Source: Halomonas caseinilytica
GTDB taxonomy: Bacteria; Pseudomonadota; Gammaproteobacteria; Pseudomonadales; Halomonadaceae
Direction: 5' to 3'
Length of the DNA: 64,000 nucleotides
Assembly (NCBI RefSeq): GCF_001662305.1
Contig: NZ_BDEP01000016.1
Location: 1-64,000 of the forward strand
The position numbers and the translations under genes were made by a program. The notes under the pieces are model-generated. The model saw only the letters and a program-made list of their open reading frames with translations. It did not search any database and was not told the origin of the DNA. Each line of letters opens with the position of its first letter. Position 1 is the first letter of the stretch. Shown in pieces: positions 5,089 to 58,330 of the stretch.

Positions 5089-5213
5089 GGGGTCCTCCGT
5101 CGGGCGTTGACTTCTTCATCTTGACGATCCCGAAGGTCGCCATGAGTTCCCTGAGCATGGCACGTTGCGCGCCAGGCCTGCTATCTTGAGCCTTTCTCGA
5201 CAGGGATGCCCTC

Positions 5214-6569: not shown

Positions 6570-6574
6570 CCCCT

Positions 6575-7186: not shown

Positions 7187-7301
7187 GTCGGTCTCCGCGG
7201 CGGTGGAAAGCCCTCATCCCAGCATGGGCCACGCCCCGGGTCCAGTGTCATAGTGGTGGGGGCGCTCATCGTGTCGGGGTGGCAAGGGCCGAGGAGGAAT
7301 C

Positions 7302-7832
7302 GTGGGGAACGAGCGACGTGAGGTGAGGCGATTCGGTCTCGGCATGATGCTGTTGTTCTGGGCGCTGTTGCTGGGTCTCGGCACCTGGTGGCTGCAGGGC
7401 ATGCTGGAGCGCCGTGAGAATCCGAATGCCCATCTGGTCAATGTCGAAGCCGGCGAAACGCTGACGCTCGAGCGCAACGCCTCGGGGCATTTCGTCGCCA
7501 CCGGGCGCATCAATGGCGAGCCGGTGCCCTTCCTGCTGGATACCGGCGCCACCTTCGTGGCGGTGTCCGGCTCTCTGGCCGAGCGACTCGACCTGGAGCG
7601 TCAGGGCGAGGCCTGGTTCTCCACGGCCAATGGTCGGGCGCGAGGCCATCTGACCACTCTCGACACGGTCAGCCTGGGTGGCCTGACCGCGCAGGAGGTT
7701 CGCGGCTCCATCAGCAACGGATTGGCGGGCGACAGGGCCCTGCTGGGCATGAGCTACCTGGGGCGCTTCGATATTGCGATCAGCGGAGACCGACTGACCC
7801 TGCGGGTGCCGGCCGACGTCTCCTCGGAATAG
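7302..7832 (+). CDS. Membrane-anchored retropepsin-like aspartic protease
   Basis: A 176-residue protein of the bacterial clan AA (TIGR02281-type) family. One N-terminal transmembrane helix (about 11-31) is followed by a periplasmic retropepsin-like domain with the catalytic Asp80-Thr81-Gly82 triplet in FLLDTGATFVAVS, a flap-like middle section and the closing GMSYLGRFDIAIS segment. Retropepsins of this type dimerise to build the active site, since one chain supplies only one Asp. The start is GTG 7302, supported by GAGGAGG just upstream. Physiological substrates of this bacterial family are not established. The next gene (VRR-NUC) begins 33 nt downstream. Confidence 0.85.
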   Translation: MGNERREVRRFGLGMMLLFWALLLGLGTWWLQGMLERRENPNAHLVNVEAGETLTLERNASGHFVATGRINGEPVPFLLDTGATFVAVSGSLAERLDLERQGEAWFSTANGRARGHLTTLDTVSLGGLTAQEVRGSISNGLAGDRALLGMSYLGRFDIAISGDRLTLRVPADVSSE

Positions 7833-7865
7833 AGCCGGTCGTGGTGAGCCTGTTATGCTGTACGT

Positions 7866-43380: not shown

Positions 43381-43570
43381 GATATTCAGGCCTTGAATGC
43401 GAGTGAGTTTGCCATGGAAGATGCGGGTGAAGCGGGTTGGATTCAAGGGGCGGAACGATACGACCTTGCTGGCCCTTGTCATCGAGGGGCCGATGTTGCT
43501 TCCTGGATGTTGGTTCGTTCTTTTTACTAATGGTGAGGCCGGAGTGTCCGTTCCCCTCATGACTCGCCTA

Positions 43571-43587
43571 TGAGCTGGCCCAGCTCA
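43571..43587. repeat. 17-bp perfect palindrome downstream of xylR
   Basis: TGAGCTGG-C-CCAGCTCA lies 12 bp after the xylR stop. It may be part of a weak terminator or a protein-binding site; neither is shown. Confidence 0.3.
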
Positions 43588-43598
43588 GGGCATCTGCC

Positions 43599-44798
43599 TC
43601 AGATGAGATCGCTGGGCCCATGGATGACGCTGGCGAGCACCTGAGCGGCGGCACCTCGGGCGGCAACGAATGTGGAGTCCTCGATCACGCGTAGGGGAGT
43701 CTGCTGCGTGGTGCCCAGAAGACGGTTCTGGTGAGCCGCGAAATACGACAGGGCCGGGTCAAGGAGCGGAGCGCCCAACTGGACCAGCGATCCCCCCAGG
43801 ACGAGCTCGGAAGGATTCTGGGTGTGGTGAAGATTGAGCAACAGGATCCCCAGAGCCTCGCCCGCGCGCCGCAGGGTGAGCTGGACGCTCTCTTCGTGCA
43901 TCCGGGGTTGCAGGGCTTCGATGAGCCCCTCTTCCTCGGAGATGCCCAGGGCCGCCCGGATCGACCAGCCGCTGACCAGTGTCTCCGCGCAGCCGCGATT
44001 GCCACAGTGGCAGTAGAGGCCGCCCGGTTGCAGAACGGTATGGCCGATTTCGCCAGCCAGCCCCTGGAAGCCCCGGGAAAGAAGGGGTTGATTGCCCTCG
44101 ATCATACCGCTGCCAATGCCGGTACCGGCACTGACGTAGACCAGCGAGTCGGGCACTTGGCCAGTGCGGAAGTAGAACTCTCCGAAGGCGGCCGACTTGG
44201 CCTCATTGTCCATCAGCCAGGCGCCGTCCTGCTGCGGCAGGTGGTGGCGGAGTAGATCGAGGAAGCGCACGTCCTTCCATCCCAGGTTGGGCGCCATGCG
44301 CAGGACGGCGTCCTTGGGGGCGACAGGACCGGGTAGGGCGACGCCGATGCCGAGAAGACAATAGCCTTCGAGTGCCGGGGATTGCGTCAGCGTTTGCAAC
44401 AGGTTGGCGAGCAACTCGGCCGTCATTTCAGGCGAAGAGGGAGAAAGTCGCTCGTGGTGAGAGGCCAGTACTTGCCCCGAGAGCGTGCAGGCCACCAAGC
44501 GCAGGCCATGAACACCGACTTCGGCGCCGAGAATCGCAAAGTGTTGCTCATCGAGATGCAGGGCGCGGCCAGGACGTCCTCCACTGCTTTTCTGCAGCTC
44601 CCCCTCGCGTAACCACCCCTGCTTGAGCAATGACTGCACCCCCGTTCCCACTGTTGCCTTTGTCAATTGGGCGTGGGTGGCAATATCGGCGCGCGTCAGA
44701 CCTGGAGAGCGGCGAATGAGCTCCAGAATGGCACTGCGATTGAGCCGTTTGAGGAAATGGAGATCGCCTGACCGGTGAGGCCGAAAGCTGGTGGACAT
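43599..44798 (-). CDS. xylR: ROK-family transcriptional regulator of xylan/xylose genes (XylR type)
   Basis: A 399-residue ROK repressor. The N-terminus is a winged helix (about 19-75, [28 protein letters not shown]), followed by the ROK sugar-kinase-like fold. The zinc site His253 (AGEIGH) and Cys263-x-Cys265-x4-Cys270 (CHCGNRGC) is intact, as are [11 protein letters not shown] and [10 protein letters not shown]. XylR of Bacillus, a family member, binds xylose and represses xyl genes. Divergent position next to xylB and the xylan-specific neighbours make that role likely here. Candidate operators are the TTAGT-N11-ACTAA sites at 45034, 54129 and 54277. The ligand (xylose, xylobiose or glucuronate) is not shown by sequence. 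Confidence 0.8.
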
Positions 44799-45000
44799 CG
44801 GGTATCCCTATTGTTTGCCGGTGTTGTTCGGGTCATTTCGGCTCGCCGGGTTGGATGTTTTGTGGCCGAGCTCGACGGCATGGCCTGGGCAGGACGAGGG
44901 ACGCCTTGAGCCGATGCAACAACGCCGTTACCGAATGATATGCCGACTATCGATGATACCGGGTTTCGCCGGGCGTTGCTGTACGTATACCAAAGTCTCA

Positions 45001-45029
45001 TTGAGTCAGGGGGTGCGGATGATCATTCT
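45001..45029 (+). promoter_or_regulatory. Possible xylB promoter
   Basis: TTGAGT (45001-45006), 17 bp, then CATTCT (45024-45029) is the best -35/-10 pair before xylB, with 4/6 and 3/6 matches. The XylR-like site begins 5 bp after it and would cover the transcription start, a position suited to repression. The hexamers are weak, so the promoter is tentative. Confidence 0.3.
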
Positions 45030-45033
45030 GCCA

Positions 45034-45056
45034 CTTAGTAAATAGATAAAACTAAG
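45034..45056 (+). promoter_or_regulatory. Candidate XylR operator 1 (CTTAGT-N11-ACTAAG)
   Basis: CTTAGT (45034-45039) and ACTAAG (45051-45056) form a perfect 6-bp inverted repeat with an AT-rich 11-bp spacer, 8 bp before the xylB start. The same form recurs at 54129. The Bacillus XylR operator also ends in TTAGT and ACTAA. Confidence 0.6.
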
Positions 45057-45064
45057 AGGTGAAG

Positions 45065-45835
45065 ATGAGTGAGGATGCGGGGCATTACCCCAGCCTGGAG
45101 CAGCGGGTGGTCTTCATTACCGGTGGCGGTAGTGGCATCGGTGCGGGGTTGACTCGTGCCTTTCACCGACAGGGCGCCCTGGTTGTCTTTGTCGATATCG
45201 ATGATGCCGCCAGCCAGGCGCTGGTCGAGGAGTTGAAGAGGGAAACCGGCAGGACGCCGCAATATCACCATTGCGACATTCGAGATGTGGCGGCCCTGCA
45301 GGCGGTCATCGATGACGTGGGGCGGACACTGGGGCCGATTCAGGTCTTGGTCAACAATGCGGCCAACGATGATCGGTATTCCTGGAAAGACATCGATGTC
45401 GAGTACTGGGACGAGCGCATGTCGCTCAATCTGCGACCGATGTTTTTCGCGGCACAGGCGGTGGCGCATCAGATGATGGAGGCCGACGGGGGCTCGATCA
45501 TCAACTTTGGCTCAATCAGCGTAAGGATGGCTCTTGGAGATCTGACCTCCTACATGACAGCGAAAGCAGCGGTACATGGCTTGACCCGAAGCCTGGCGCG
45601 TGACCTGGGGGTACACAATATCCGCGTCAACACCTTGGTGCCCGGCTCGATAATCACCGAACGGCAGCTTGAGAAGTGGATTGGCCCCGAAGAAGAGGCG
45701 TCGATCCAGGCTCGCCAATGCTTGAAATTCCGACTGGAAGCTCCTCATGTGGCGCCGGCCGTGCTGTTCCTGGCCAGTACCGCTAGCCAAGCGATTACTG
45801 GTCAGGAACTGGCCGTCGATGGTGGGTGGGGGTGA
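45065..45835 (+). CDS. xylB: D-xylose 1-dehydrogenase (XylB type, SDR family)
   Basis: A 256-residue short-chain dehydrogenase closely matching Caulobacter XylB, which oxidises D-xylose to D-xylono-lactone with NAD+. Shared segments include FITGGGSGIGAGLTRAF (glycine motif 20-26), LVNNAANDDR, YWDERMSLNLRPMFFAAQAVA and IRVNTLVPG. Catalytic Ser150, Tyr163 and Lys167 are present. Asp44 after the second strand favours NAD+. ATG 45065 has AGAGG 6 nt upstream; GTG 45059 is an alternative. It is the first gene of the plus-strand xylan operon. The name follows Caulobacter, not the unrelated xylulokinase gene of E. coli. Confidence 0.82.
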   Translation: MSEDAGHYPSLEQRVVFITGGGSGIGAGLTRAFHRQGALVVFVDIDDAASQALVEELKRETGRTPQYHHCDIRDVAALQAVIDDVGRTLGPIQVLVNNAANDDRYSWKDIDVEYWDERMSLNLRPMFFAAQAVAHQMMEADGGSIINFGSISVRMALGDLTSYMTAKAAVHGLTRSLARDLGVHNIRVNTLVPGSIITERQLEKWIGPEEEASIQARQCLKFRLEAPHVAPAVLFLASTASQAITGQELAVDGGWG

Positions 45836-45887
45836 TCGCTTTCAGCGGCCTAGAACTCATCCGACAAGCACAATCAAGGAGAACAAC

Positions 45888-47177
45888 ATGATCACATTCA
45901 ACAAGCGGGACGGGGCGCGGTTACGTCGAAGTTATCTGATGGCAGCGATGGCTGCTGCATCGTCACTGACTTCCGGTGTGGCCGTGGCAGATACCACTGT
46001 GAATGTGTTGCGGGTCGAAGTGAGCGACGCCGAAAAGCAGTATTACAACGAGGTCGTCGCGGAATACGAAGCCCGTCATCCGGATGTCAACGTCGAGTTC
46101 GACTACATCGCCAATGAGGCCTACAAGACGCGTTTGCCAACGCTACTACAGTCCGACCAACGTCCCGATATCTTCTACAGCTGGGGGGGCGAGGGCTTGC
46201 GTGACAAGGTGAACGCCGGCTTCGTGCGTGATCTGACCGAGCCTATGCAGGAGGGTTGGCAAGTGTTGTACCCCGACTCAGCGGTGAGTCCTTTCACTCT
46301 GGATGGTCGGATTTATGGCGCGCCTCTATATGCCACTGTGGTGGGCTTCTGGGCCAACACGGCCCTGACCGAACAGGCGGGGATCGACGTTGAAGCGATC
46401 GAGACGTGGGAGCAACTCGAAAACGCGGTGGTGACGCTGCGAGAGGCGGGCATCACGCCGGTGGTCGTCGGCGCCAAGGACGGCTGGCCCATGCACTTCT
46501 ACTGGGGATATCTGGCCACACGCCTGGCCGGCGGTAATGGAATCGAAGCCGCCAAGGCAGGTGAAGAGGGCGGCTTCACCAATGAGGATTTCGTTCGTGC
46601 CGGCGAAATGCTTCAGGAGTTCGCCGAACTGGACCCCTTTCAATCGGGATTCATGACGACGACCTACGAGCGTGCCAGCGGCATGTTCGGTGATGGCGAG
46701 GCGGCGCTGCATCTGATGGGAGATTGGGATTACCTGCCTTCCAAGGAGCGCTCGGTCAGCGGTGAAGGAGTGCCGGACGAGGACCTGGCGTTCATTCGCT
46801 TTCCCGAGATACCGGGAGGCGCGGGGAATGCGCATAGTTTCGGCGGCATGAACGGTTTTGCAGTCACCCAGGGCGCTCCCGACGAGGCCATCGATTTCCT
46901 GCGCTTTCTGCTCAATGAGGACAACCAGCGTGAGGCCGCGCGGCGGGGAATCTTCGTGCCGGTAGCCAAGGGGTCTGAAGAAGCGCTCATGACACCCTAT
47001 GCACGCAAGGTGGCCGATATCCTCGCTGACTCAAGCTTCCACCAGGTGTTTCTCGATCAGGCGCTGGGCACCTCGGTCGGTGCGACGGTCAACAATATCA
47101 GTACTGACCTTGCTCAGGGGGTGATCACGCCGGAAGAAGCGGTCGAGCGGATCGCTGAGGCCTGGCAGTTCCGGTAA
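45888..47177 (+). CDS. Sugar ABC transporter substrate-binding protein (xylo-oligosaccharide)
   Basis: A 429-residue periplasmic binding protein of ABC family 1 (MalE-like). The signal peptide covers residues 1 to about 32 (cleavage near AVA-DTT), and the mature part has the usual two-lobed pattern, with VEFDYIANEAYKTRLPTLLQSDQRPDIFYSWGG near the hinge. The ligand is most likely a xylo-oligosaccharide or a related sugar, judged by the surrounding GH43 and GH67 genes. RBS AAGGAG is 7 nt upstream of ATG 45888, and the gene starts 52 nt after xylB. Two permease genes and a separated ATPase gene complete the transporter. Confidence 0.87.
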   Translation: MITFNKRDGARLRRSYLMAAMAAASSLTSGVAVADTTVNVLRVEVSDAEKQYYNEVVAEYEARHPDVNVEFDYIANEAYKTRLPTLLQSDQRPDIFYSWGGEGLRDKVNAGFVRDLTEPMQEGWQVLYPDSAVSPFTLDGRIYGAPLYATVVGFWANTALTEQAGIDVEAIETWEQLENAVVTLREAGITPVVVGAKDGWPMHFYWGYLATRLAGGNGIEAAKAGEEGGFTNEDFVRAGEMLQEFAELDPFQSGFMTTTYERASGMFGDGEAALHLMGDWDYLPSKERSVSGEGVPDEDLAFIRFPEIPGGAGNAHSFGGMNGFAVTQGAPDEAIDFLRFLLNEDNQREAARRGIFVPVAKGSEEALMTPYARKVADILADSSFHQVFLDQALGTSVGATVNNISTDLAQGVITPEEAVERIAEAWQFR

Positions 47178-47249
47178 GCGTCGCTCATGCGCGTGCCGGT
47201 GACAGAACTGCCGGCACGCAACACGCCCGCCTTGGGATGGAAGTCCACC

Positions 47250-48182
47250 ATGTCAACATTGAATACCCCTACTATATACAAGCGAAATACAGCGGATCGC
47301 ATCAAGAAGAATGTGGTGAGCGGTAAACTATCTGCTGTTCTTATCCTGCTGCCACCGGCGTTGATTCTTTTTTCATTGTTCGTCATCTTGCCGCTGGTTG
47401 ATGCCGCTTACTACAGCGGATTTTCATGGAATGGCTATGGGGCGCCTTCCGACTTCGTCGGCGGGCAGAACTACCAGCGGTTGCTCGATCACTCGGTCTT
47501 CCATACAGCGCTGTGGAATACCGCGAAGTTGATGCTTGTCTCTCTGATCATACAGATGCCGCTGGCACTGGGACTGGCATTGCTGGTGTATCGCAAGACA
47601 CCGACCAACACCCTGTTTCGGCTGGTGTTCTTTCTCCCTTACATCCTGGCTGAGGTAGCTGCCGGCCTGATCTGGAGCTTCGTTTTCGACGGCGACTACG
47701 GTATTACGGCCTCAATACTTCAGTCGATGGGACAGGAATCCGTTTATGTGCTGGCCGATCGTCAGTGGGCCTTCCCGGCGATCATGACAGTCATCGTGTG
47801 GAAGTATTTCGGCTTTCACATGATGATCTATATCGCGGCATTGCAGAGTGTGCCCAAGGACCTGATCGAAGCGGCCAAGCTGGAGGGTGCCAAGCCACGC
47901 CAGGTTGCCTGGTTCGTGCAGATCCCGATGATCAAGCACGCTCTGGTGGTGAGCGGGTTTTTCGCCATCATCGGCTCTCTGCAGATCTTCGATATCATCA
48001 TCCCGATGACCAACGGTGGGCCGTCCAACACAACCCACACCATCGTGACCTATCTCTACACCTTCGGGCTTTCGCGACTGAACATCGGTTTCGGTAGTGC
48101 CGCGGCCGTCGTGCTCTTCGTGCTGGCCATCGGAATTGCCTTCTTCTACAAGCGCAGTACCGGCAAGGAGGACCAGGCATGA
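47250..48182 (+). CDS. Sugar ABC transporter permease (first)
   Basis: A 310-residue inner-membrane permease of the MalF/UgpA type, with about six helices. The EAA cytoplasmic loop that contacts the ATPase reads EAAKLEGAKPRQVAWFVQIPM, and the C-terminal segment IGSLQIFDIIIPMTNGGP is characteristic of this class. ATG 47250 has GGATGGAAG upstream. It lies 72 nt after the binding-protein gene and overlaps the next permease by 4 nt (ATGA, 48179-48182). With the partner it forms the channel for import of the oligosaccharide. Confidence 0.9.
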   Translation: MSTLNTPTIYKRNTADRIKKNVVSGKLSAVLILLPPALILFSLFVILPLVDAAYYSGFSWNGYGAPSDFVGGQNYQRLLDHSVFHTALWNTAKLMLVSLIIQMPLALGLALLVYRKTPTNTLFRLVFFLPYILAEVAAGLIWSFVFDGDYGITASILQSMGQESVYVLADRQWAFPAIMTVIVWKYFGFHMMIYIAALQSVPKDLIEAAKLEGAKPRQVAWFVQIPMIKHALVVSGFFAIIGSLQIFDIIIPMTNGGPSNTTHTIVTYLYTFGLSRLNIGFGSAAAVVLFVLAIGIAFFYKRSTGKEDQA

Positions 48183-49003
48183 ATGGGACTACCCGCAATA
48201 CACTGCGTGTGATACTGCTGATTCTGGTCGCCAGCCTGGTCATCGGTCCACTGCTGGCCGCCGTTTTCGGTGGATTCAAGACCAATCCCGAGTTGCGCAC
48301 GAATCCACTGTGGTTGCCGGAGAGCTGGAACCCGGAAAACTATATTGCCATCTTGCTCGATGGGAATTTCTGGCGCTATCTGGGCAACTCTTTTTTCATC
48401 TCCTCGATGACAGTGTTGCTGACCCTTGTGGTAGGAGCGGCAGCGGCCTATGTGTTCGCCCAGATTCGCTTTCTGGGTTCTAAGATGATCCTCTCCTATC
48501 TGTTGCTGGGACTGATGTTCCCCTTTGCAGCCGCCATTCTGCCTCTATTCATCAAGGTGAGGGATCTGGGGCTACTGGACACTTATTGGGGCGTCATTCT
48601 TCCCCAGACGGCTTTCGGATTGTCGTTGTCGATCCTGTTGTTCAAGGCATTTTTCGACCAGCTTCCCCGGGAACTTTTCGAGGCAGCCTACGTTGACGGT
48701 TGTAGCTACCTGCGATTCTTCTGGTCATTCACTCTGCCGCTGTCGACGCCCATTCTGGCGACTGTTGGTGTGTTCGTCTTCGTTCAAAGCTGGAATAACT
48801 TCCTGTTGCCATTGGTGGTGCTCAATGATCGTGCCCTTTATACCTGGTCACTCGGCATGATGCAGTTTCAAGGCGAGTATCTGACGCAATGGAACATGAT
48901 TCTGGCTTTCGTGAGCTTGACGATCATGCCGGCGGTGATCTTTTTTCTCGCTGCCCAGAAATACATCGTGGCGGGTCTCACTGGTGGCTCCGTCAAGGGT
49001 TAA
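48179..49003 (+). CDS. Sugar ABC transporter permease (second)
   Basis: A 274-residue permease of the MalG/UgpE type with about six helices. The EAA loop is FEAAYVDGCSYLRFFWSFTLPLS, and the C-terminal QKYIVAGLTGGSVKG is the usual end of this family. It overlaps the first permease by 4 nt, ensuring coupled translation, and the GH43 gene begins 12 nt after its stop. The two permeases form one heterodimeric pore, energised by the ATPase encoded at 50677. Confidence 0.9.
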   Translation: MNGTTRNTLRVILLILVASLVIGPLLAAVFGGFKTNPELRTNPLWLPESWNPENYIAILLDGNFWRYLGNSFFISSMTVLLTLVVGAAAAYVFAQIRFLGSKMILSYLLLGLMFPFAAAILPLFIKVRDLGLLDTYWGVILPQTAFGLSLSILLFKAFFDQLPRELFEAAYVDGCSYLRFFWSFTLPLSTPILATVGVFVFVQSWNNFLLPLVVLNDRALYTWSLGMMQFQGEYLTQWNMILAFVSLTIMPAVIFFLAAQKYIVAGLTGGSVKG

Positions 49004-49015
49004 GGGAGAACAAAG

Positions 49016-50623
49016 ATGGACAACGTGATTCACAATCCTATTTTGCGGGGCTTCAATCCTGACCCCTCCATTTGCCGGGTTGGCAAGGATTATTATATCG
49101 CCACCTCTACCTTCGAGTGGTACCCGGGGGTACAGATCCATCACTCTCGCGATCTGGTCAACTGGCAGCTGGTCTCACGCCCGCTGGCTCGGGAGACGCA
49201 GCTCGACATGCGAGGCAATCCCGATTCCTGTGGTATCTGGGCACCTTGCCTGAGCCATGCCGATGGCTTTTTCTGGCTGATATACACTGACATGAAGCGT
49301 TACGAAGGCAACTTCAAGGATGGCCACAATTATCTGGTCACGGCGCCTTCGATCGAAGGCCCTTGGAGCGATCCTGTCTACTTGAATTCCAGTGGTTTCG
49401 ACCCTTCTCTGTTCCATGATGAGGATGGTCGGAAGTGGTTGCTCAACTTGCAGTGGGATTACCGGCAGCGTGAGGGCGGTGACCGTTTCGGCGGCATCCT
49501 GCTTCAGGAATATGATGTCGAGCGGCAACGCCTGATGGGACCGATTCACAACATCTTCGCCGGGACCGAGCTGAAGCTCACCGAAGGCCCGCATCTCTAT
49601 CGGCGGGATGGTTGGTATCACCTGCTGGTGGCCGAAGGCGGTACCGGCTATGACCATGCCGTGACCATGGCACGTTCGCGAAAGATTACGGGGCCTTATC
49701 AAGTGCATCCCGACAATCCTGTGCTGACGTCTCGTCAGGATTCGGGCAATCCACTTCAACGTGCCGGCCATGCGGACCTGGTCGAAACAGCGAGCGGCGA
49801 AACCTGGATGGTGCACTTGTGTGGACGGCCTCTGCCTGGTACGCGACGCTCGCCACTGGGACGCGAAACGGCGATCCAGAAGGTCGAGTGGGGGGAGGAT
49901 GGCTGGCTGCGCCTGGCTCATGGCGGCAATGCGCCGGCCATTGAGGTTCCGATGGCTGGAGTCGAGCAGCGATCACCGGCTGTCGAGGAGGTCCATGACT
50001 TTGCTTCCGATGCTTTGCCTGCGGTCTTTCAGTGGTTGCGCTCGCCCCGGACCGAGCGGCTCTTTTCGTTGAGCGCGCGTCCTGGCTATCTGCGCTTGTT
50101 CGGTCGCGAGTCGGTGGGCTCCTGGTTCGAGCAGGCGCTCGTGGCGCGTCGCCAGGACAGTCTCCACTGCAGTGCCGAGACCACGCTGGAGTTCGAGCCG
50201 GAGGATTTGCAACAGTTCGCTGGCCTGATCGCCTACTACAACCGTTTCAAGTTCCATTACCTGGCGGTAACCCGTGGGGATGAGGGCGACAAGGTGCTCA
50301 GCGTGATGAGCTGCCACGATGCCTGGCCGAGCGGCAATCTGGAAATTGCCGATACCGGCGGGGTGGTGCTCGATCCCGAGCAGCCAGTACGCCTTGGTCT
50401 CGACATTCGAAAGGGCGAACTGCAATTCCGATACGCCCAGGACAATGCTCCCTGGCAGCCGGTCGGCCCGGTGCTTGATGCCAGTCTGCTTTCCGATGAG
50501 GGAAGCGGTCGCGCCCATGGCTATTTCACCGGCAACTTCCTGGGCATGGCGGCCCATGATATCAGCGGTCGCGGGATACCGGCGGATTTCGCCGACTTCC
50601 GCTATCGCCGTGAAGACGGCTGA
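49016..50623 (+). CDS. xynB: GH43 beta-xylosidase (cytoplasmic)
   Basis: A 535-residue glycoside hydrolase of family 43 that removes xylose units from short xylo-oligosaccharides. The five-bladed catalytic domain begins HNPILRGFNPDPSICRVG; Asp16 is the general base, Asp129 (SSGFDPSLF) the pKa modulator and Glu190 (LTEGPHLY) the acid, in the positions expected from Selenomonas XynB (14, 127, 186). The C-terminal ~200 residues are the beta-sandwich typical of this subfamily. No signal peptide is present, so it acts inside the cell on ABC-imported substrate. It sits between the permease and ATPase genes. Confidence 0.9.
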   Translation: MDNVIHNPILRGFNPDPSICRVGKDYYIATSTFEWYPGVQIHHSRDLVNWQLVSRPLARETQLDMRGNPDSCGIWAPCLSHADGFFWLIYTDMKRYEGNFKDGHNYLVTAPSIEGPWSDPVYLNSSGFDPSLFHDEDGRKWLLNLQWDYRQREGGDRFGGILLQEYDVERQRLMGPIHNIFAGTELKLTEGPHLYRRDGWYHLLVAEGGTGYDHAVTMARSRKITGPYQVHPDNPVLTSRQDSGNPLQRAGHADLVETASGETWMVHLCGRPLPGTRRSPLGRETAIQKVEWGEDGWLRLAHGGNAPAIEVPMAGVEQRSPAVEEVHDFASDALPAVFQWLRSPRTERLFSLSARPGYLRLFGRESVGSWFEQALVARRQDSLHCSAETTLEFEPEDLQQFAGLIAYYNRFKFHYLAVTRGDEGDKVLSVMSCHDAWPSGNLEIADTGGVVLDPEQPVRLGLDIRKGELQFRYAQDNAPWQPVGPVLDASLLSDEGSGRAHGYFTGNFLGMAAHDISGRGIPADFADFRYRREDG

Positions 50624-50676
50624 GCGGCTCCTGCGCACCCGACAACCACAAATATACGCAATGACGAGATGATCTC

Positions 50677-51714
50677 ATGGCTGAAGTATCGCTGGTCGAA
50701 ATCGAAAAGACCTTCCGTGGCAAGACCACGGTCATTCCCAACCTCAACCTGCAGATTGAGGATGGCTCCTTTACGGTGTTGGTAGGCCCATCCGGCTGCG
50801 GCAAGTCGACCTTGTTGCGCATGATTGCCGGGCTGGAGACGGTGACGCGTGGTGCGATCCGTATCGACGGCCATGACGTGACGACTGCGGAACCCAGCGA
50901 TCGTGACATCGCCATGGTCTTTCAGTCCTATGCGCTCTATCCGCATATGACCGTGGCACGCAACATCGATTTTGGCATGCGCTTGGCCAAGATACCCGCA
51001 CAAGAGCGACAGGCGAAGGTCGACGAAGCGGCCAAGCTGCTCAACCTGGAAGACCTGTTGCAGCGCAAGCCGTCCGAACTTTCCGGCGGTCAGCGTCAGC
51101 GCGTGGCCATCGGTCGCGCCATCGTGCGTAATCCTGGAGTGTTCCTGTTCGATGAGCCGCTCTCCAATCTGGATGCAGCTCTGCGCAACCGCATGCGTGT
51201 CGAGCTCGCCGAATTACACCAGCGACTCAAGGCCACCATGGTGTATGTCACTCATGATCAGATCGAAGCCATGACCCTGGCTGATCGTATCGTGGTCATC
51301 AATGCCGGCAAGATCGAGCAGGTGGGACCGCCCATGGAGCTCTACCAACGTCCCGAGACATTGTTCGTGGCCGGTTTCATCGGCTCGCCGAAGATGAACC
51401 TGATCACGGGGGCCGTTGCTGAAGCCTATGGGGCCACGACGCTGGGCGTTCGTCCTGAGCACATGGAGGTCGATCGCGATAGCGGAGAGTGGCATGGGCG
51501 CATTCGGGTGGTCGAGAAGTTGGGGTCCGATGCCTTCGCTTATGTGGATAGCGAGCAGGTGGGTGCCTTGACGGTTCGCCTGCCTGGCGATGTCGACGTG
51601 AAAAGTGGTGACACCCTTTATTTGACGCCTCACCACGAACGACTCCATCCCTTCGATCGGGAGGGAATGCGCTTACCGGATACGGTCCTGGCGAATGCCA
51701 GGGCCATTGCCTGA
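50677..51714 (+). CDS. Sugar ABC transporter ATP-binding protein (MalK/UgpC type)
   Basis: A 345-residue ATPase. Walker [10 protein letters not shown] (37-45), signature LSGGQRQR and Walker [13 protein letters not shown] are intact. The C-terminal regulatory domain (about 235-345, with [10 protein letters not shown]) marks it as a MalK/UgpC/MsmX type, which often serves one or more carbohydrate importers. Gene order with a binding protein and two permeases upstream makes it the partner of this importer. It follows the GH43 gene by 53 nt. Confidence 0.9.
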
Positions 51715-51717
51715 TTC

Positions 51718-51739
51718 CCCCCGAGAACTGTGTCGGGGG
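51718..51739 (+). terminator. Hairpin after the ATPase gene
   Basis: CCCCCGA (51718-51724) pairs with TCGGGGG (51733-51739), 8-nt loop, just after the ATPase stop. It has no T-run, so partial attenuation before the GH67 gene is possible. Confidence 0.35.
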
Positions 51740-51816
51740 CGGGGTGAGGGTGGGTACTTCTCTGCCACCCTGGCCTTCGTTTCTCCACACGAAAACAACG
51801 AAGGAGTCATGCTTCT

Positions 51817-53982
51817 ATGAAAAAGCGACGACGCGGTGCCTGCCTTGGCCTGGCGATTCTCCTGGCCATGTTGATGACATCTCAGGCATGGGCCGAAGAT
51901 GGCTATGATCTATGGCTGCGTTATCAACCCATCACTGATACCGAGGCGCTCGAGACTTATCGTGACGCCATCTCCGGTGTCTTGATCGAGTCTGATTCAC
52001 CGACCCTCGACATTGCCCGCGAGGAAATCTCGAGAGGCTTGAATGGGCTCCTCGGTAGTAACGTTCCCATGTTATCCGGAGCGCCGGAGGATGGAGCCCT
52101 GATCATCGGCACCCCGCAGGGGTCCGAGATGATCGCCGAGCTCGACCTGGAGGGCTTCGATCAGATCAACGACGACGGCTTCGTTATCCACTCCACGTCA
52201 GTGCGAGGTGAGCCCGCCACAGTGATCGCTGCCAATACGGATCAAGGGGTGCTCTATGGCGTCTATCACTTTCTGAGGTTGATCCAGACCCAGCAGCCGA
52301 TCGACGACCTGGCGCTCGTGCAGTCTCCACGGATCGAGCGTCGAGTACTCAACCACTGGGACAATCTCGATCGTACGGTGGAGCGGGGCTATGCTGGCTT
52401 CTCGTTATGGGAATGGCACAAACTGCCGGACTACCTGAATCCGCGCTATATCGACTATGCGCGTGCCAACGCTTCGCTGGGTATCAATGGCACGGTGCTG
52501 ACCAATGTCAATGCCGATGCCACCGTCCTCATGCCTCGCTACCTGGACAAGGTGAAAGCTCTTGCCGATCTTTTCCGTCCCTATGGGATTCGCGTCTACC
52601 TGACTGCCCGCTTCAGCGCGCCAATGGAGATTGGTGGCCTGGAAACGGCCGACCCGCTGGATCCTGACGTCCGGGCCTGGTGGCAGTCCAAGGTCGACGA
52701 GATCTATGAACGCATCCCTGATTTCGGAGGCTTTCTGGTGAAGGCGAACTCCGAAGGGCAGCCCGGACCAGGCGACTATGATCGTTCGCATGCCGAGGGA
52801 GCCAACATGCTGGCCGATGCGGTGGCTCCCCATGACGGCATCATCATGTGGCGAGCGTTCGTGTATTCTCCTGTGGCTGATGACCGGCACAAGCAAGCGT
52901 ACGACGAGTTCGTGCCACTCGACGGCGACTTCCGCGACAATGTGCTGGTGCAGGTCAAGAATGGCCCCATCGACTTCCAGCCTCGTGAGCCCTTCAATCC
53001 GCTCTTCGGTGCCATGCCGAGTACATCTCTGATGATGGAGTTCCAGATCACCAAGGAATATCTGGGACAAGGCACGCATCTGGCTTATCTGGCGCCACTG
53101 TTCAAGGAGGCATTGGACGCCGATACCTATGCTCAGGGCGAAGGGTCCACGGTTGCCAAAGTGATCGACGGAAGCCTGAGTGGTGATACGCTGACCGCCA
53201 TTGCGGGAGTGGCCAACACGGGGACAGACCGCAACTGGACCGGCTCTCATTTCAACCAGGCGAATTGGTACGCTTATGGTCGCCTCGCCTGGAATCATGA
53301 TTTGAGTGCTGAAGCCATCGCCGATGAATGGGTGCGCATGACGTATACCAATGATCCCGACTTCGTTGAACCGGTCAAGGCAATGATGATGGGGTCGCGT
53401 GAAGCCGTCGTCGATTACATGACCCCTCTCGGGTTGCATCATCTAATGGGGGAGAGTCATCACTATGGTCCTGCCCCTTGGATCGCTGACCGGGAGCGCG
53501 AGGATTGGACTAATGTGTACTACCATCGCGCCACGCGTGATGGAGTCGGGTTCGATCGTACCTCAGAGGGGACCAATGCCGTTGGGCAGTATGCTCCTCC
53601 AGTTCAGGAAATGTTCGAGGATGTCGACCGGACACCGGAAAAGTATTTGCTCTGGTTTCATCATGTCCCCTGGGATCATGAAGTGTCTTCTGGCCGTACC
53701 CTCTGGGACGAACTGGTGTACCGCTATAACCGAGGGGTCGAGTATGTTCGTGACATGCGGGATACGTGGGCTTCTCTCGAGGGCATGATCGACGAGCAGC
53801 GTTATCGTGACACCGAAGCTTACCTGGAGATTCAGGAGAAAGAAGCAATATGGTGGCGTGATGCCAGCCTGAGCTATTTCCAGACGTTCTTTGGCCAAGA
53901 AATCCCCGAAGAATATGAGTTACCCGCCCATACGCTGGAATATTATCAGAGCCTGAAGTTTCCTTTTGCCCCGGGTATCTGA
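51817..53982 (+). CDS. GH67 alpha-glucuronidase, exported
   Basis: A 721-residue family 67 enzyme that removes the (4-O-methyl) glucuronic acid from the non-reducing end of xylo-oligosaccharides. Residues aligned with the Cellvibrio enzyme are Glu313 (acid, NSEGQPGP), Asp386 (GPIDFQ) and Glu414 (ITKEYLG); their spacings of 73 and 28 residues match those of 292, 365 and 393. A signal peptide (about 1-26, ending AWA) directs it to the periplasm or envelope. AAGGAG lies 10 nt before ATG 51817; a 3-codon ORF (ATG at 51809) overlaps the start through ATGA. It completes removal of the uronic-acid cap before import. Confidence 0.92.
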   Translation: MKKRRRGACLGLAILLAMLMTSQAWAEDGYDLWLRYQPITDTEALETYRDAISGVLIESDSPTLDIAREEISRGLNGLLGSNVPMLSGAPEDGALIIGTPQGSEMIAELDLEGFDQINDDGFVIHSTSVRGEPATVIAANTDQGVLYGVYHFLRLIQTQQPIDDLALVQSPRIERRVLNHWDNLDRTVERGYAGFSLWEWHKLPDYLNPRYIDYARANASLGINGTVLTNVNADATVLMPRYLDKVKALADLFRPYGIRVYLTARFSAPMEIGGLETADPLDPDVRAWWQSKVDEIYERIPDFGGFLVKANSEGQPGPGDYDRSHAEGANMLADAVAPHDGIIMWRAFVYSPVADDRHKQAYDEFVPLDGDFRDNVLVQVKNGPIDFQPREPFNPLFGAMPSTSLMMEFQITKEYLGQGTHLAYLAPLFKEALDADTYAQGEGSTVAKVIDGSLSGDTLTAIAGVANTGTDRNWTGSHFNQANWYAYGRLAWNHDLSAEAIADEWVRMTYTNDPDFVEPVKAMMMGSREAVVDYMTPLGLHHLMGESHHYGPAPWIADREREDWTNVYYHRATRDGVGFDRTSEGTNAVGQYAPPVQEMFEDVDRTPEKYLLWFHHVPWDHEVSSGRTLWDELVYRYNRGVEYVRDMRDTWASLEGMIDEQRYRDTEAYLEIQEKEAIWWRDASLSYFQTFFGQEIPEEYELPAHTLEYYQSLKFPFAPGI

Positions 53983-53994
53983 TTGAAGCCTCTC

Positions 53995-54025
53995 TTTCGG
54001 GTCACTCGAAGCGAGTGACCCGAAA
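53995..54025 (+). terminator. 14-bp stem-loop after the GH67 gene
   Basis: TTTCGGGTCACTCG pairs perfectly with CGAGTGACCCGAAA over a 3-nt loop. No T-run follows, so it may stabilise the 3' end of the mRNA as much as terminate it. Confidence 0.5.
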
Positions 54026-54128
54026 TGGTCGGTTCAGCCCAGCCAATCCATCTAGTGAGACAGTCACCGTCCTTCAGCGAGGCTGTATGGAAGCTTCGTG
54101 GGCGGGGCGGTAGCGCCTTATCATTACT

Positions 54129-54151
54129 GTTAGTAAATTAAAAATACTAAC
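54129..54151 (+). promoter_or_regulatory. Candidate XylR operator 2 (GTTAGT-N11-ACTAAC)
   Basis: GTTAGT (54129-54134) and ACTAAC (54146-54151) form a perfect 6-bp inverted repeat with an 11-bp AT-only spacer. Arms, spacer length and the AAAT that opens the spacer repeat those of site 1. Confidence 0.6.
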
Positions 54152-54276
54152 TCTAAGCACGCTACCGAGGTGGTGAGTATATTGGTGTCGTCTGCGAACC
54201 ATGAATCGAAAGAAAGAGGCTTTATTTTCTACTAAGGTCGTGTTGCTGAATGTGTTCTTGGGGTCGACTATGCCTA

Positions 54277-54299
54277 TATAGTTTGATCATTTTACTAAG
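54277..54299 (+). promoter_or_regulatory. Candidate XylR operator 3 (TATAGT-N11-ACTAAG)
   Basis: TATAGT (54277-54282) and ACTAAG (54294-54299) have the same 11-bp spacing as sites 1 and 2, with one mismatch within the core TTAGT arm. Its spacer contains TGATCA. It lies about 150 bp before the porin start. Confidence 0.45.
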
Positions 54300-54446
54300 T
54301 GTCAAGCTATCCTCGGAAGATGTCGTGATGGATGAGGGTTAGCCTTCCGAGAAAGGGTCCGATCGGCTTCGCCGATAGAGAAATGAATGGGCCGCCAAAA
54401 CGACGTTATCACCATCGAACACAACAAGATGAATGGATGAGTTGGC

Positions 54447-55598
54447 ATGCAATTAGCTCGATACAAGAAGCTCTCTCTCGCAGTGATGCTTTCCATGGGA
54501 AGTGGTGCGCCGGCTATGGCGGATGTGACCTATGAAGGAGAAGCCGGAACGCTGAGCGTTGGTGGCGACGTGGAGCTGAATATTAATGCCTATAACGAAC
54601 ACGAAGGGGGAAGCTCCCTTTTCCGGACCCAGTCAGGAGAGCGACTGGGAAGGGATGACCGCTTCAACCAGGATGGCCGAATCCTGATAGACATCAATGG
54701 TGATCGGCAGACATCCCGACACTATGCGCGTTTCAAGCTTCAACCGCTATGGAATACCAGTGGCGATACAGGGGTTGACGATGCCTGGTTTGCGGTCGGC
54801 TCCCACGCCGGTAGCGAGCTGAAGGTAGGACGGTTCGAGGCGTTTGACCTGTTTCCACTGGGGCAGGATGTTTTCGTCCAGTATAGCGGAAGTACCTCGA
54901 ACAGCCTCTATAGCGATGGGCAAAGCTATGTCTATCAGGCGAGAGAAGGACGGGGGCGAGGCGATTCAGGGCAAATTGCCTTGAGCCATCGGTTCGGTGA
55001 CACGATGTACACCGAAGTTGCCACCCTGTTCGGGGATCGGTCCGATCTGTTCGATGGCGATACATACCACGGCTATGATATCGAAGATGACTCCAAGAGT
55101 GCCGCCATTGTACGTCCAGTGATTGCCTGGACGCCAGAATCTTGGACCTTTGCAGTGGGGATGGAAGCTAACTTGGTAAATGATTCCGTCATTGATGAGA
55201 GAGGAGAGGATATCGGCGATAGAACAGGGTATGGTGCGAGGGTTTCCTATGGGCATGAAGGTCTCGATTTCAACTTAAATTTTGCCCATATGGAGGCTCA
55301 TGAGGAAAGTAACTCCACTGTGGGTGTCAATACAGTATGGAATAATGTTGGAGTAGGGTATATCTATGCTGAGAACGATATCGATGATGTCAAGCCCGGC
55401 GCGAGCATGAAAGATATAACCCCGGCTGGGGTCAATAAGTCGAGCACATTATATTCGTCTTACCGGTTTGCAAATGTCCTGGGAATTAATCAGTTCGATA
55501 CCTATGTAGGTGCATACTACAGCGAGGTGGATCACGACAATGGCGCTACGGAAACAGACCGATATGGTGCCAGGGTGAGGTTAAAGTATCTTTTCTGA
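54447..55598 (+). CDS. Carbohydrate outer-membrane porin (RafY-like)
   Basis: A 383-residue outer-membrane beta-barrel protein. A signal peptide (1 to about 25, ending AMA) is followed by a segmented barrel with many aromatic, Gly, Asp and Ser-rich strands and the C-terminal motif VRLKYLF, ending in Phe as most porins do. Strands such as SELKVGRFEAFDLFPLGQDVFVQY and the overall length suggest the carbohydrate-porin (RafY-like) group. It most likely lets acidic xylo-oligosaccharides into the periplasm, where GH67 can act. It has its own upstream region with two candidate operators and is followed by a clear terminator. Confidence 0.78.
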   Translation: MQLARYKKLSLAVMLSMGSGAPAMADVTYEGEAGTLSVGGDVELNINAYNEHEGGSSLFRTQSGERLGRDDRFNQDGRILIDINGDRQTSRHYARFKLQPLWNTSGDTGVDDAWFAVGSHAGSELKVGRFEAFDLFPLGQDVFVQYSGSTSNSLYSDGQSYVYQAREGRGRGDSGQIALSHRFGDTMYTEVATLFGDRSDLFDGDTYHGYDIEDDSKSAAIVRPVIAWTPESWTFAVGMEANLVNDSVIDERGEDIGDRTGYGARVSYGHEGLDFNLNFAHMEAHEESNSTVGVNTVWNNVGVGYIYAENDIDDVKPGASMKDITPAGVNKSSTLYSSYRFANVLGINQFDTYVGAYYSEVDHDNGATETDRYGARVRLKYLF

Positions 55599-55633
55599 AG
55601 CCAGTCCTTTCTATGACTATCTTGTTCGTTCCT

Positions 55634-55659
55634 GGCGTCCATAACTGGACGCCCTTTTT
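55634..55659 (+). terminator. Rho-independent terminator after the porin gene
   Basis: GGCGTCC (55634-55640) pairs with GGACGCC (55647-55653), 6-nt loop, followed by CTTTTT. It lies 35 bp after the porin stop and before the symporter gene. Confidence 0.7.
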
Positions 55660-55673
55660 CAAGGAGATTGGAG

Positions 55674-57080
55674 ATGGAGGGTCGAAAGCCTCTGAGTCGT
55701 TCCGCCTATATACTCATCATATGCTGTATTGCTGCCATTGGTGGCTTTCTCTTCGGCTTCGATAGTGGCGTGATCAACGGCACGGTCGAAGGTCTTCAGA
55801 CCTCTTTCGATTCCGACAGCGTAGGCACCGGGTTCAACGTAGCCTCCATGTTGCTGGGCTGTGCCGTTGGTGCCTTCTTCGCGGGCCGCCTGGCGGACCG
55901 TTTCGGACGCCGTACCTTGCTGATTGTATCGGCGATATTCTTCCTGGTCAGTGCCTGGGGGTCCGGTATTGCCGATGCGTCCGTGGAATTCGTGATCTAT
56001 CGCATTCTTGGTGGCATGGCAGTAGGGGCTGCCAGTGTGATGACGCCAGCCTATATCAGTGAAGTGGCACCCTCGCGCTATCGTGGTCGGCTGGCGACCA
56101 TCCAGCAGGTGGCCATCATTGGTGGGTTGTTCATGGCATTTCTGAGCAACTACGTGCTGGCCTATATCTCGAGTTCGGCGGTCGCCGAGCTGTGGTTTGG
56201 GTTCGCTACCTGGCGTTGGATGTTCTGGATGGAACTGTTGCCGGCGGCGGTGTTCCTTGTGGCGTTGTTGTTCATTCCTGAGAGCCCGCGATATCTGATC
56301 AGTAGTGGGCGACAGTCGGAGGCTCGCCACGTGCTGGGCCTGGTGATGTCTGAGCACGAGGTCGGTGACAAGCTCGATGAGATTCATGCCACCCTGGTGC
56401 AGGACCACACGCCACGCCTGAGTGATGTGGTCAACCGCGTGGCCGGCAAGGTGCATGGCATCGTCTGGGTCGGGATCGGCCTGGCGGTGTTCCAGCAACT
56501 GGTGGGCATCAACGTGGTGTTCTACTACGGCGCAGTGCTATGGCAGTCGGTCGGGTTCTCCGAGGGGGATGCCCTGTTGATCAACGTGATTTCCGGTGCC
56601 GTGAGCATCGGGGCCTGCCTGTTGGCCATTGCCCTGATCGACAAGATCGGGCGCAAGCCGCTGCTGTGGGCCGGTTCGGTGGGCATGGCGGTGACGCTGT
56701 CCTGCCTGGTGTTCGCCTTCTCTACGGCGACCATGGTCGACGGTAGCCTGGACCTCAGTGATGACATGGGGGTGCTGGCCCTGCTGGCCGCCAATGTTTA
56801 CGTGTTCTGCTTCAATCTCTCCTGGGGGCCGGTGATGTGGGTGATGCTGGGAGAGATGTTTCCCAATCAGATGCGTGGTTCGGGGCTTGCCATCGCCGGG
56901 TTGTGTCAGTGGCTGGCCAACTTTGCCATCACCATGTCCTTTCCCGTCATGTTGGCCTCCATTGGGCTGGCGGGTGCCTATGGCTTCTATGCATTGTGTG
57001 CCGTGCTGTCGGCCTTTTTTGTACTGCGTTATGTCCGGGAAACCCGTGGCAAGGAACTCGAGGAGATGGCCTACGACTAG
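55674..57080 (+). CDS. Sugar:proton symporter of the MFS (XylE-like)
   Basis: A 468-residue transporter of the sugar porter family with 12 transmembrane helices. Diagnostic motifs are GGFLFGFDSGVINGT (TM1), GRLADRFGRRTLL (motif A), R-x-LGGMAVGAASVMTP, PESPRYLI and, in the second half, QQLVGINVVFYYG, DKIGRKPLL and PNQMRGSG. E. coli XylE shows the same set. Because xylose released outside the cytoplasm would need an uptake route, xylose is the likely substrate, but related proteins move arabinose, galactose or myo-inositol. ATG 55674 has AAGGAG 7 nt upstream; a terminator precedes it. Confidence 0.85.
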   Translation: MEGRKPLSRSAYILIICCIAAIGGFLFGFDSGVINGTVEGLQTSFDSDSVGTGFNVASMLLGCAVGAFFAGRLADRFGRRTLLIVSAIFFLVSAWGSGIADASVEFVIYRILGGMAVGAASVMTPAYISEVAPSRYRGRLATIQQVAIIGGLFMAFLSNYVLAYISSSAVAELWFGFATWRWMFWMELLPAAVFLVALLFIPESPRYLISSGRQSEARHVLGLVMSEHEVGDKLDEIHATLVQDHTPRLSDVVNRVAGKVHGIVWVGIGLAVFQQLVGINVVFYYGAVLWQSVGFSEGDALLINVISGAVSIGACLLAIALIDKIGRKPLLWAGSVGMAVTLSCLVFAFSTATMVDGSLDLSDDMGVLALLAANVYVFCFNLSWGPVMWVMLGEMFPNQMRGSGLAIAGLCQWLANFAITMSFPVMLASIGLAGAYGFYALCAVLSAFFVLRYVRETRGKELEEMAYD

Positions 57081-57108
57081 CGGGTCGATCATATCGCGCT
57101 TTATACGC

Positions 57109-57137
57109 GACGCGCCGACTTGCGGTCGGGGCGTCGC
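57109..57137 (+). terminator. Hairpin after the symporter gene
   Basis: CGACGCGCCGAC (57109-57120) pairs with GTCGGGGCGTCG (57126-57137), one mismatch and a 5-nt loop. CCCCTT follows. It ends 39 bp before the lactonase start. Confidence 0.4.
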
Positions 57138-57176
57138 CCCTTGTGGCATCACCATCGGAAATGAACAGGGGTGAGC

Positions 57177-58073
57177 ATGGAGACGGAGACTGGCATGAAA
57201 GTGGCGGTCGAGCTGGACATGAGTCTGGGTGAGAGCCCGTTATGGTCGGTGGCGCGGCAGACGCTCTATTGGTTGGATATCAATCGTGGCGCGATCTACG
57301 CGTGGCAGCCCGAGCGGGAGGCGGCGCCTTCGCGTATCGAGCTGGACGAAAAGGTCGGCTGCATTGCGCTGTGTGAGGCAGGCCTGCTCGCCGCAACGGC
57401 CTCGGGCATTGTCAGGCTGCATTGGCCGTTCGATGGTCGGAGCGAACGCCTGGCGGACAACCCTGAGTGGCGAGAAGACGAGGGCAACCGCTTCAACGAC
57501 GGCCGCTGCGATAGCATGGGGCGCTTCTGGGCGGGAACGATCGCCGCCGATGAGTCTACCCCGTCTGCGGCCCTCTATTGTTTTGAGGAGGGAGAACTGG
57601 TGCGGCGCTGGTCTGGCCTTGGCATTGCCAATGGGCTGGCCTTCAGTCCCGATCGGCGCTGGTTATATCATACCGACTCGCTGACGCGGCAGATTCTACG
57701 CTATCCCTTCGATATGGAGAGTGGGACCACCGGCAAGCCTCAGGTCTGGGTGGATCTGGAGGCTCAAGGTTTGCCGGGAGTGCCGGATGGTGCGGCCGTG
57801 GATAGTGAGGGCTGCTATTGGAGCGCCCTCTATGGTGGAGGGCGTATCGTGCGTTTTTCGCCTCGGGGCGAGTTGATGGGTAGCGTCGAGGTACCTTGCC
57901 CGCATCCCACCATGGTGGCTTTTGGGGGGGCTGACCTTAAGACTCTTTATATCACCACGGCCACCCAGCATCTGAAGGCGCCAGAGAGAAGGCGCTGGCC
58001 TGCTGCCGGTAGCCTGCTCCGCATGCCCGTATCCACCGCCGGGCTGCCTGAACCCGTGGCCTCTTACTCTTAG
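57177..58073 (+). CDS. xylC: SMP-30/gluconolactonase-type xylonolactonase (XylC-like)
   Basis: A 298-residue six-bladed beta-propeller of the SMP-30 family. The metal-binding residues are visible: Glu19 (LGESPLW), the Asn in IANGLAFSPD and the Asp in VPDGAAVDSEGCYWSAL. Blocks such as LYHTDSLTRQILRYPFD, GRIVRFSPRG and FGGADLKTLYITTA match Caulobacter XylC, which hydrolyses D-xylono-lactone to D-xylonate. With xylB in the same locus, this is the expected second step of oxidative xylose breakdown. ATG 57177 is chosen, with AGGGG upstream; GTG 57171 is the alternative. It is the last gene of the locus. Confidence 0.78.
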   Translation: METETGMKVAVELDMSLGESPLWSVARQTLYWLDINRGAIYAWQPEREAAPSRIELDEKVGCIALCEAGLLAATASGIVRLHWPFDGRSERLADNPEWREDEGNRFNDGRCDSMGRFWAGTIAADESTPSAALYCFEEGELVRRWSGLGIANGLAFSPDRRWLYHTDSLTRQILRYPFDMESGTTGKPQVWVDLEAQGLPGVPDGAAVDSEGCYWSALYGGGRIVRFSPRGELMGSVEVPCPHPTMVAFGGADLKTLYITTATQHLKAPERRRWPAAGSLLRMPVSTAGLPEPVASYS

Positions 58074-58253
58074 GCAGGTCGGTAGCGTGGCGCGCCATGC
58101 CGTGTCTCAGGCGTTCGCCGCTTGCGGGCCGCAACCACAGGTTGTCTTGGTGTGTGAAAGCCGTGCCGGGAACTGCTGGCGGGCAGGTTTCTGTCGGTTG
58201 GCTGGACGCAAAGAAAAAGCCGGTTCCCTCAGGGAACCGGCTTTTTCGATATT
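58074..58253. other. Gap between the lactonase gene and the tRNA
   Basis: About 140 bp downstream of the lactonase hold no gene I can support. The segment ends in the strong bidirectional terminator at 58213-58247. Confidence 0.4.
58213..58247. terminator. 16-bp perfect bidirectional terminator
   Basis: GAAAAAGCCGGTTCCC and GGGAACCGGCTTTTTC are perfectly complementary across a TCA loop. Read in either direction the stem ends in a T-run, so it stops both the lactonase transcript and the tRNA transcript, whose gene ends 7 bp away. Confidence 0.9.

Positions 58254-58330
<77 letters not shown>

Follow-up and report, generated by a model that had tools for sequence, protein, structure and literature searches.

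Glycoside hydrolase family 67 (GH67) enzymes are known for their action on glucuronoxylan fragments. The exported GH67 alpha-glucuronidase of structure entry 1gqi comes from an organism that we take to be Cellvibrio, and GH67 loci of the Cellvibrio type presumably use TonB receptors. In Paenibacillus sp. JDR-2, an aldouronate cluster brings together an ATP-binding cassette (ABC) importer, GH43, GH10 and an intracellular GH67 enzyme (PMC4765114). The xul locus of Vibrio sp. EA2 combines ABC and major facilitator superfamily (MFS) transporters with GH43 and beta-1,3-xylanases, and relies on an isomerase pathway and an activator (PMC12125979). Oxidative entry of xylose without an isomerase route is described for a Halomonas cluster of strains HL-48 and HL-93 (PMC5507952), and the Caulobacter-type oxidative pathway (PMC9795676) employs a short-chain dehydrogenase/reductase (SDR), an SMP-30 lactonase, an IlvD/Edd dehydratase and an FAH-family enzyme. 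We describe here a locus of Halomonas caseinilytica that resembles each of these in part. It lies at positions 43599-58073 of a 64000-nucleotide stretch (contig NZ_BDEP01000016.1, here C16, positions 1-64000 of a 3.57-Mb assembly in 38 contigs; hereafter the window).

The locus is probably a family-common system for xylo-oligosaccharide use and xylose oxidation under a ROK/XylR-like regulator, which has been retooled with a GH67 enzyme and a RafY-type porin for fragments branched with glucuronic acid. The added GH67 gene and the RafY-type porin in the place of LamB, not the core combination, are what distinguish this genome. More tentatively, and at somewhat less than even confidence, it may represent a Gram-negative glucuronoxylan-oligosaccharide system that works by porin and ABC importer rather than by TonB, and that arose by exchange of LamB for a RafY-type porin and addition of an exported GH67 enzyme within a ROK regulon that was already in place, the porin coming under its operator. 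If so, a sugar operon would have shifted its diet by swapping an outer-membrane channel and adding one enzyme, its regulator and core being kept. The locus shares with the Halomonas cluster its bacterial group (by resemblance), the oxidative entry of xylose and the lack of an isomerase route, but the word glucuronidase is absent from the main text of PMC5507952, whereas a GH67 gene is present here. According to the same paper, no candidate xylonolactonase or xylonate dehydratase had been identified in Halomonas; genes proposed for both roles are offered by the present locus and those of its relatives. In contrast to the JDR-2 cluster (PMC4765114), the GH67 enzyme is exported, no GH10 gene was found in the genome, and an outer-membrane porin and oxidative xylose genes are present. 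With the xul locus (PMC12125979), which holds the closest solved relative of its binding protein, it shares the set of ABC, MFS and GH43 genes, and it has GH67, oxidative enzymes and a ROK regulator where xul has beta-1,3-xylanases, an isomerase pathway and an activator. The Caulobacter-type SDR, lactonase, IlvD/Edd and FAH-family genes all have counterparts, which unlike those of that pathway are split over at least three places (the window and contigs C17 and C23).

The gene order consists of the ROK regulator on the minus strand followed, all on the plus strand, by the SDR, a substrate-binding protein (SBP), two permeases, GH43, an ABC ATPase, GH67, the porin, a symporter and the lactonase. 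A preliminary description, made from the letters alone, had named these families, and Pfam found every one of them in place in the 11 proteins (ROK, SDR, SBP, permeases, GH43 with GH43_C2, ABC ATPase, the N, M and C domains of GH67, Porin_8, Sugar_tr and SGL). Also supported is its view that a single unit combines entry across the outer membrane, an exported GH67 enzyme, uptake by an ABC importer, GH43 in the cytoplasm and non-phosphorylative first steps. No TonB-dependent receptor occurs among the 11 proteins by Pfam; Porin_8 is present instead.

The core of the locus is a predicted D-xylose 1-dehydrogenase of the SDR family (45059-45835, with a possible start at the ATG at 45065), an SBP of xylo-oligosaccharide type (45885-47177), two ABC permeases with Pfam BPD_transp_1 (47187-48182 and 48179-49003), a GH43 beta-xylosidase (49016-50623) and an ABC ATPase of the UgpC/MalK type (50677-51714; NF008653 above its cut-off). 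The open reading frame of the SBP was first called too long, its likely start being 45885 and not 45747. Relatives of the SBP at E 1e-60 occur in 36 of 275 genomes of the family, its own included, and the stretches around all 35 others were compared. The SBP, both permeases, GH43 and the ATPase stand together in every one of the 35. An SDR of more than 60% identity lies ahead of the SBP in 33; the exceptions are L183, truncated by the end of its contig, and the rearranged L202. In a further relative, L203 (genome G243), the ATPase, GH43 and SBP genes at 4426-10065 are in several pieces and different frames, as decay or poor assembly would leave them. Among the genes alongside, FAH-family, alpha-ketoglutarate semialdehyde dehydrogenase (KGSADH)-like and L132-like dehydratase genes each occur in at least 12 stretches and a lactonase of more than 55% identity in at least 8, counts that are lower bounds as the stretches end. 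An example is the order in L136: dehydratase, lactonase-like gene (34%), GntR, FAH-family gene, KGSADH, ROK, core, mutarotase, LamB, symporter and second dehydratase. Because relatives such as this hold more pathway genes, the locus in the window is a reduced version. The combination of import with oxidative xylose steps, which the preliminary description had singled out, is therefore the usual locus of the family, and several relatives hold a fuller one. In the closest relatives (L128-L130) the core genes are 82-95% identical and follow the order ROK, SDR, importer, GH43, ATPase, LamB, symporter, lactonase. Comparison with 29 relative stretches brought up no orthologue of nine proteins that flank the locus in the window, only SDR matches of about 30%; the relatives thus carry the locus at another place in their genomes.

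The first addition to this core is the GH67 alpha-glucuronidase gene (51817-53982, plus strand), the final gene of the first unit. Its product is of the same family as 1gqi (910 bits), with the mature N-terminus aligned: the alignment begins at residue 27 (EDGYD...), where the 1gqi chain begins, and the preceding N-terminus resembles a signal peptide as judged by eye. Both features are at odds with a cytoplasmic GH67 enzyme fed by import of the branched sugar, as in the Gram-positive type. The N, M and C domains score above their Pfam cut-offs, the 721-aa frame is intact, and the protein retains the glutamate replaced by alanine in entry 1h41, which we take to be the catalytic acid. The enzyme is predicted to release (methyl)glucuronate from the ends of xylo-oligosaccharides. 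GH67 was found in 1 of the 275 family genomes, in 1 of 58 in a search of genus and order, and in none of the 35 relative stretches. Among GH67 loci from other groups (the best 80 of 305, many with flanks that end at contig ends), the SBP, permeases and porin had no match at E 1e-15 and more than 80 bits. An SDR of 45-54% identity lies within 10 kb of GH67 in five of the 80 (L005-L008 and L064), and L005 and L064 also have a lactonase at 34-36%. Hence GH67 beside oxidative xylose genes is not new, but none of these best 80 of 305 loci pairs GH67 with this importer and porin at the limits given. In a tree of 37 rows (the window and 36 loci hand-picked from the 80 for spread), the neighbour was Salinivenus, with support of 94/90, under the starred level, and a branch of 0.54; no donor is claimed. 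A literature search joining Halomonas, GH67 and xylan turned up a single paper, on a rice-straw consortium.

The second change concerns the outer membrane. Where L128-L130 have LamB, the window has GH67 and a RafY-type porin (54447-55598, plus strand; Pfam Porin_8). This porin is found in none of the 35 relative stretches, and a search at E 1e-10 finds relatives of it in 24 of the 275 family genomes. The five closest (68-71%) belong to another genus. In L172, L173 and L176 the porin follows an ABC set (read by eye), its neighbour in L176 matching the arabinofuranosidase ArfA above cut-off (852.8 bits), and in L171 it adjoins another ABC set. As these closest relatives occupy other sugar loci, the porin was probably recruited from one. 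The sole LamB-family gene of the genome, at C16:288950, has no operator nearby and is only 27% identical to the locus LamB of the relatives, and is hence no relocated copy of theirs. Between the porin and the symporter there is a hairpin with a T-run (55634-55653), which could raise porin abundance over the downstream genes.

A short operator is linked to the ROK-family, XylR-like regulator (43599-44798, minus strand; Pfam ROK and MarR_2). In an alignment of the intergenic region between ROK and SDR from the window and 16 relatives, a palindrome, TTAGT-N11-ACTAA, is strongly conserved directly 5' of the SDR; the copy in the window, TTAGTAAATAGATAAAACTAA (45035-45055), is exact. Scored in the relatives at no more than one mismatch and within 200 bases of a gene, the operator precedes the SDR in all 18 loci with a ROK orthologue beside the SDR and in none of the 15 that lack one; it also precedes each of the 16 LamB genes in the 35 stretches. 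At the same stringency the 3.57-Mb genome itself has four operator places, all within 43510-54298. Besides the one named, these are a site with one mismatch at 43510-43530, about 69 nt beyond the ROK stop codon, a second exact copy, TTAGTAAATTAAAAATACTAA, found by pattern scan at 54130-54150, and a site with one mismatch at 54278-54298, 148 nt 5' of the porin start; no strand is assigned to them. The chance that four random points fall inside such a span is about 1e-7. A reversed control pattern gave 35 matches per strand in the genome, a rough yardstick since its stop-codon content differs. The new porin, with two of the four sites ahead of it, thus appears to be wired to the regulator of the locus. 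The palindrome scan and the co-occurrence with ROK give a footing to the word regulated, which the preliminary description had applied to the unit. The link of operator and ROK is seen directly in the sequence, and ROK would regulate through these sites, probably by repression rather than activation and in response to an inducer. So short an operator opens the entire regulon to testing. A likeness to the Bacillus XylR operator is given no weight here; the Bacillus site is not printed in the passages of PMC2873477 consulted, whose text contains no TTAG.

The 43510 site may have a history of its own. Beyond ROK, at the corresponding place, L128-L130 carry an FAH-family (XylX-like) gene, and the intergenic sequences partly align; a site within one mismatch is present there in L130 but not in L128 or L129. 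The 43510 site is thus possibly the relic operator of a lost gene of the FAH family, like a 2-keto-3-deoxyxylonate (KDX) dehydratase. Some relatives have a second SDR copy (72%) 3' of the symporter, equipped with an exact operator of its own (L139, 12986-13006; L140, 19178-19198). Two transcripts, one from the SDR to GH67 and one from the porin to the lactonase, are suggested by a perfect 14-bp stem with a 3-nt loop that follows GH67 (53995-54025, plus strand; found by eye) and may end the first; it has no T-run and is absent from the list of the terminator scan. That scan did find a terminator-like hairpin 3' of the lactonase (58213-58247, plus strand).

The last two genes of the locus are a symporter of the sugar porter family (55668-57080, plus strand; TIGR00879 above cut-off, the XylE equivalog NF007484 below) and an SMP-30 lactonase (57171-58073, plus strand; Pfam SGL), a predicted xylonolactonase whose best solved relative is 7plb (152 bits). 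Entry 7plb is the Caulobacter xylonolactonase and 5oyn the Caulobacter xylonate dehydratase (PMC9795676). The preliminary description had the pathway run to xylonate, and in the locus it does so and stops there, with candidates for later steps on other contigs. Its statement that xylose isomerase is missing holds for the genome, where TIGR02630 has no match (the model matches in 6 of 14 control genomes). The companion statement on xylulokinase holds for the locus only, as such a gene lies at C17:85813 (554 bits against a cut-off of 380). Its neighbour matches the fructuronate-reductase and D-arabinitol-dehydrogenase models, under both cut-offs, so that the kinase probably serves polyols. The surrounding region (L093, C17:77000-95000) is a polyol-type cluster with the xylulokinase and the D-arabinitol-dehydrogenase-like enzyme. 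Of five IlvD/Edd genes in the genome, that at C17:341878 is 87% identical to the locus-side dehydratase of L132 and gives 824 bits to 5oyn. Contig C23 carries an FAH-family gene (400 bits to 9kkt) together with an aldehyde-dehydrogenase-like gene; the name of the latter is based on its N-terminal residues and on the genes around it, and NCBIfam gave no match at the limit used. Over their full length these are 60-78% and 72-75% identical to locus-side genes in 12 and 8, respectively, of the 35 relatives. No operator site occurs in 20 kb of C23 around the FAH-family gene, so this step may have left the regulon. These C17 and C23 genes are candidates for the xylonate dehydratase, KDX dehydratase and semialdehyde dehydrogenase, and may be arabinose enzymes. 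The C23 pair is part of a second pentose block (L148, 109-7372) with genes for a GPH-type symporter, a GH43-like protein and a GntR-like regulator, and relatives of several of the block's genes flank the xylose locus in other genomes.

The sequence itself shows the gene content and order, their conservation, the porin difference, the rarity of GH67 and the operator with its link to ROK; all substrates, the direction of the porin exchange and the widened diet are inferred. In the resulting scheme, GH67 would have joined the first operon at its end in this lineage, and the LamB heading the second operon replaced by the RafY-type porin. Branched fragments would pass the porin, and GH67 in the periplasm would strip the terminal (4-O-methyl)glucuronate. 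The neutral oligosaccharide would be taken up by the ABC importer and cleaved to xylose by GH43, which is probably cytoplasmic because its family match begins at residue 5. SDR and lactonase would then convert xylose to xylonate, and the dehydratase, FAH-family and aldehyde-dehydrogenase genes on other contigs could carry xylonate to 2-oxoglutarate. Xylose or a product would release ROK from the TTAGT-N11-ACTAA sites 5' of the dehydrogenase and the porin.

Several observations weigh against this scheme, some of which lend themselves to other explanations. On the side of regulation, the rearranged L202 has a ROK orthologue (72%) beside an SDR of 49% with no operator between, and a single site with one mismatch beyond the ATPase gene. 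When two mismatches are allowed, the window has 6 sites against a mean of 2.42 in shuffled sequence, and 3 of 100 shuffles reach 6. Sigma-70 consensus matches in the region number 8 against 6.6 in shuffles, and none lies 5' of the SDR or the porin. The gap 5' of the porin has no clear homology to that 5' of the relatives' LamB, and the operator is therefore no mere leftover of the old sequence. Nor do the closest porin relatives (68-71%), lying in other sugar loci, fix the specificity of the porin. A further difficulty is the linkage of the imported sugar. The SBP is closest among solved proteins to 8xba (401 bits, 45% identity over 408 positions), ahead of the xylo-oligosaccharide-binding protein 3zkk (182 bits). 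The code 8XBA appears in PMC12125979, whose XylC from Vibrio sp. EA2 prefers beta-1,3-xylo-oligomers, and the 8xba chain has all 16 XylC contact residues named there at the expected letters. Our SBP retains 12 of the 16, as against 4 of 16 in BlAXBP, a beta-1,4 binder, although part of this agreement is general kinship, given the overall identity of 45%. The import core might accordingly serve algal beta-1,3- or mixed-linkage xylo-oligosaccharides, as does the EA2 locus of ABC, MFS and GH43 genes for beta-1,3-xylan (PMC12125979), with GH67 a recent side addition that has its own substrate. We consider this unlikely: among solved structures GH43 matches beta-xylosidases best, with the xylan beta-1,4-xylosidase 1yrz (618 bits) at the top, no xylanase family occurs among the locus proteins by Pfam, the known GH67 substrates are glucuronoxylan fragments, and the Vibrio locus works with an isomerase, a kinase and an activator (PMC12125979). 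Of the glucuronoxylan that the preliminary description gave as substrate, GH67 alone speaks in favour; the nearest solved relative of the SBP is one with a preference for beta-1,3-xylo-oligomers.

It is improbable that the locus scavenges only neutral beta-1,4-xylo-oligosaccharides, GH67 and the new porin being passengers that add little in nature. The relatives do run the same core without GH67, and, again to the detriment of a glucuronoxylan diet, a GH10 xylanase was not found in the genome (GH11, GH30, GH8 and GH115 were not searched for); against the passenger view, the GH67 frame is intact with its 1h41-site glutamate retained, and the new porin bears the operator of the locus. About equally improbable is that another aldose, such as L-arabinose or D-galactose, is the main substrate of the SDR and lactonase, the oxidation of xylose being a side activity. 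The names XylB-type and XylE-like in the preliminary description held at the level of the families, but neither equivalog cut-off is reached (330.7 bits against 400 for the SDR with NF053674, 381.9 against 608 for the symporter), and the substrates are predictions. The top three solved relatives of the SDR are other SDRs, one of them a sulfoquinovose dehydrogenase, and for the Halomonas enzyme a role with galactose is proposed in PMC5507952. Also weighing on the main scheme, the C17:341878 dehydratase scores higher to 7m3k, labelled a galactonate dehydratase (884 bits), than to 5oyn, and sits in an arabinose-type locus. Speaking for xylose are the genome without xylose isomerase and the SDR that stands ahead of the SBP in nearly all relatives. 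On balance we favour the retooled xylo-oligosaccharide and xylose-oxidation locus.

The guanine-plus-cytosine (GC) content of the window is 51-61% over 44000-58000 and 63-69% elsewhere, and that of the single genes is 0.51-0.60, except for ROK and the lactonase (0.63-0.64). The L129 counterparts are also below the flank genes of the window (0.66-0.68), and the first gene to the right of the locus stands at 0.59. GC at third codon positions is lowest in the porin (0.54), and the relatives' LamB is also low (0.64). Low GC was rejected as an argument for a foreign origin of GH67 alone, since it extends over most of the locus and to the L129 counterparts. A mobile plasmid island was likewise rejected: a megablast search against plasmids returned no record covering 80% of the locus. 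The best plasmid match of the SBP (77%) is on a 1.8-Mb record of Halomonas sp. PA16-9; matches there are lower for the porin (below 60%) and for GH67 (at most 61.9%).

The right border of the locus, directly past the lactonase terminator, is a tRNA-Met gene on the minus strand (58254-58330); sites beside tRNA genes are a frequent location of inserted blocks. Elsewhere in the window, a gene for a FAN1-like VRR-NUC nuclease (7866-9545) overlaps a helicase open reading frame (9257-11806), the real start of which is probably further in.

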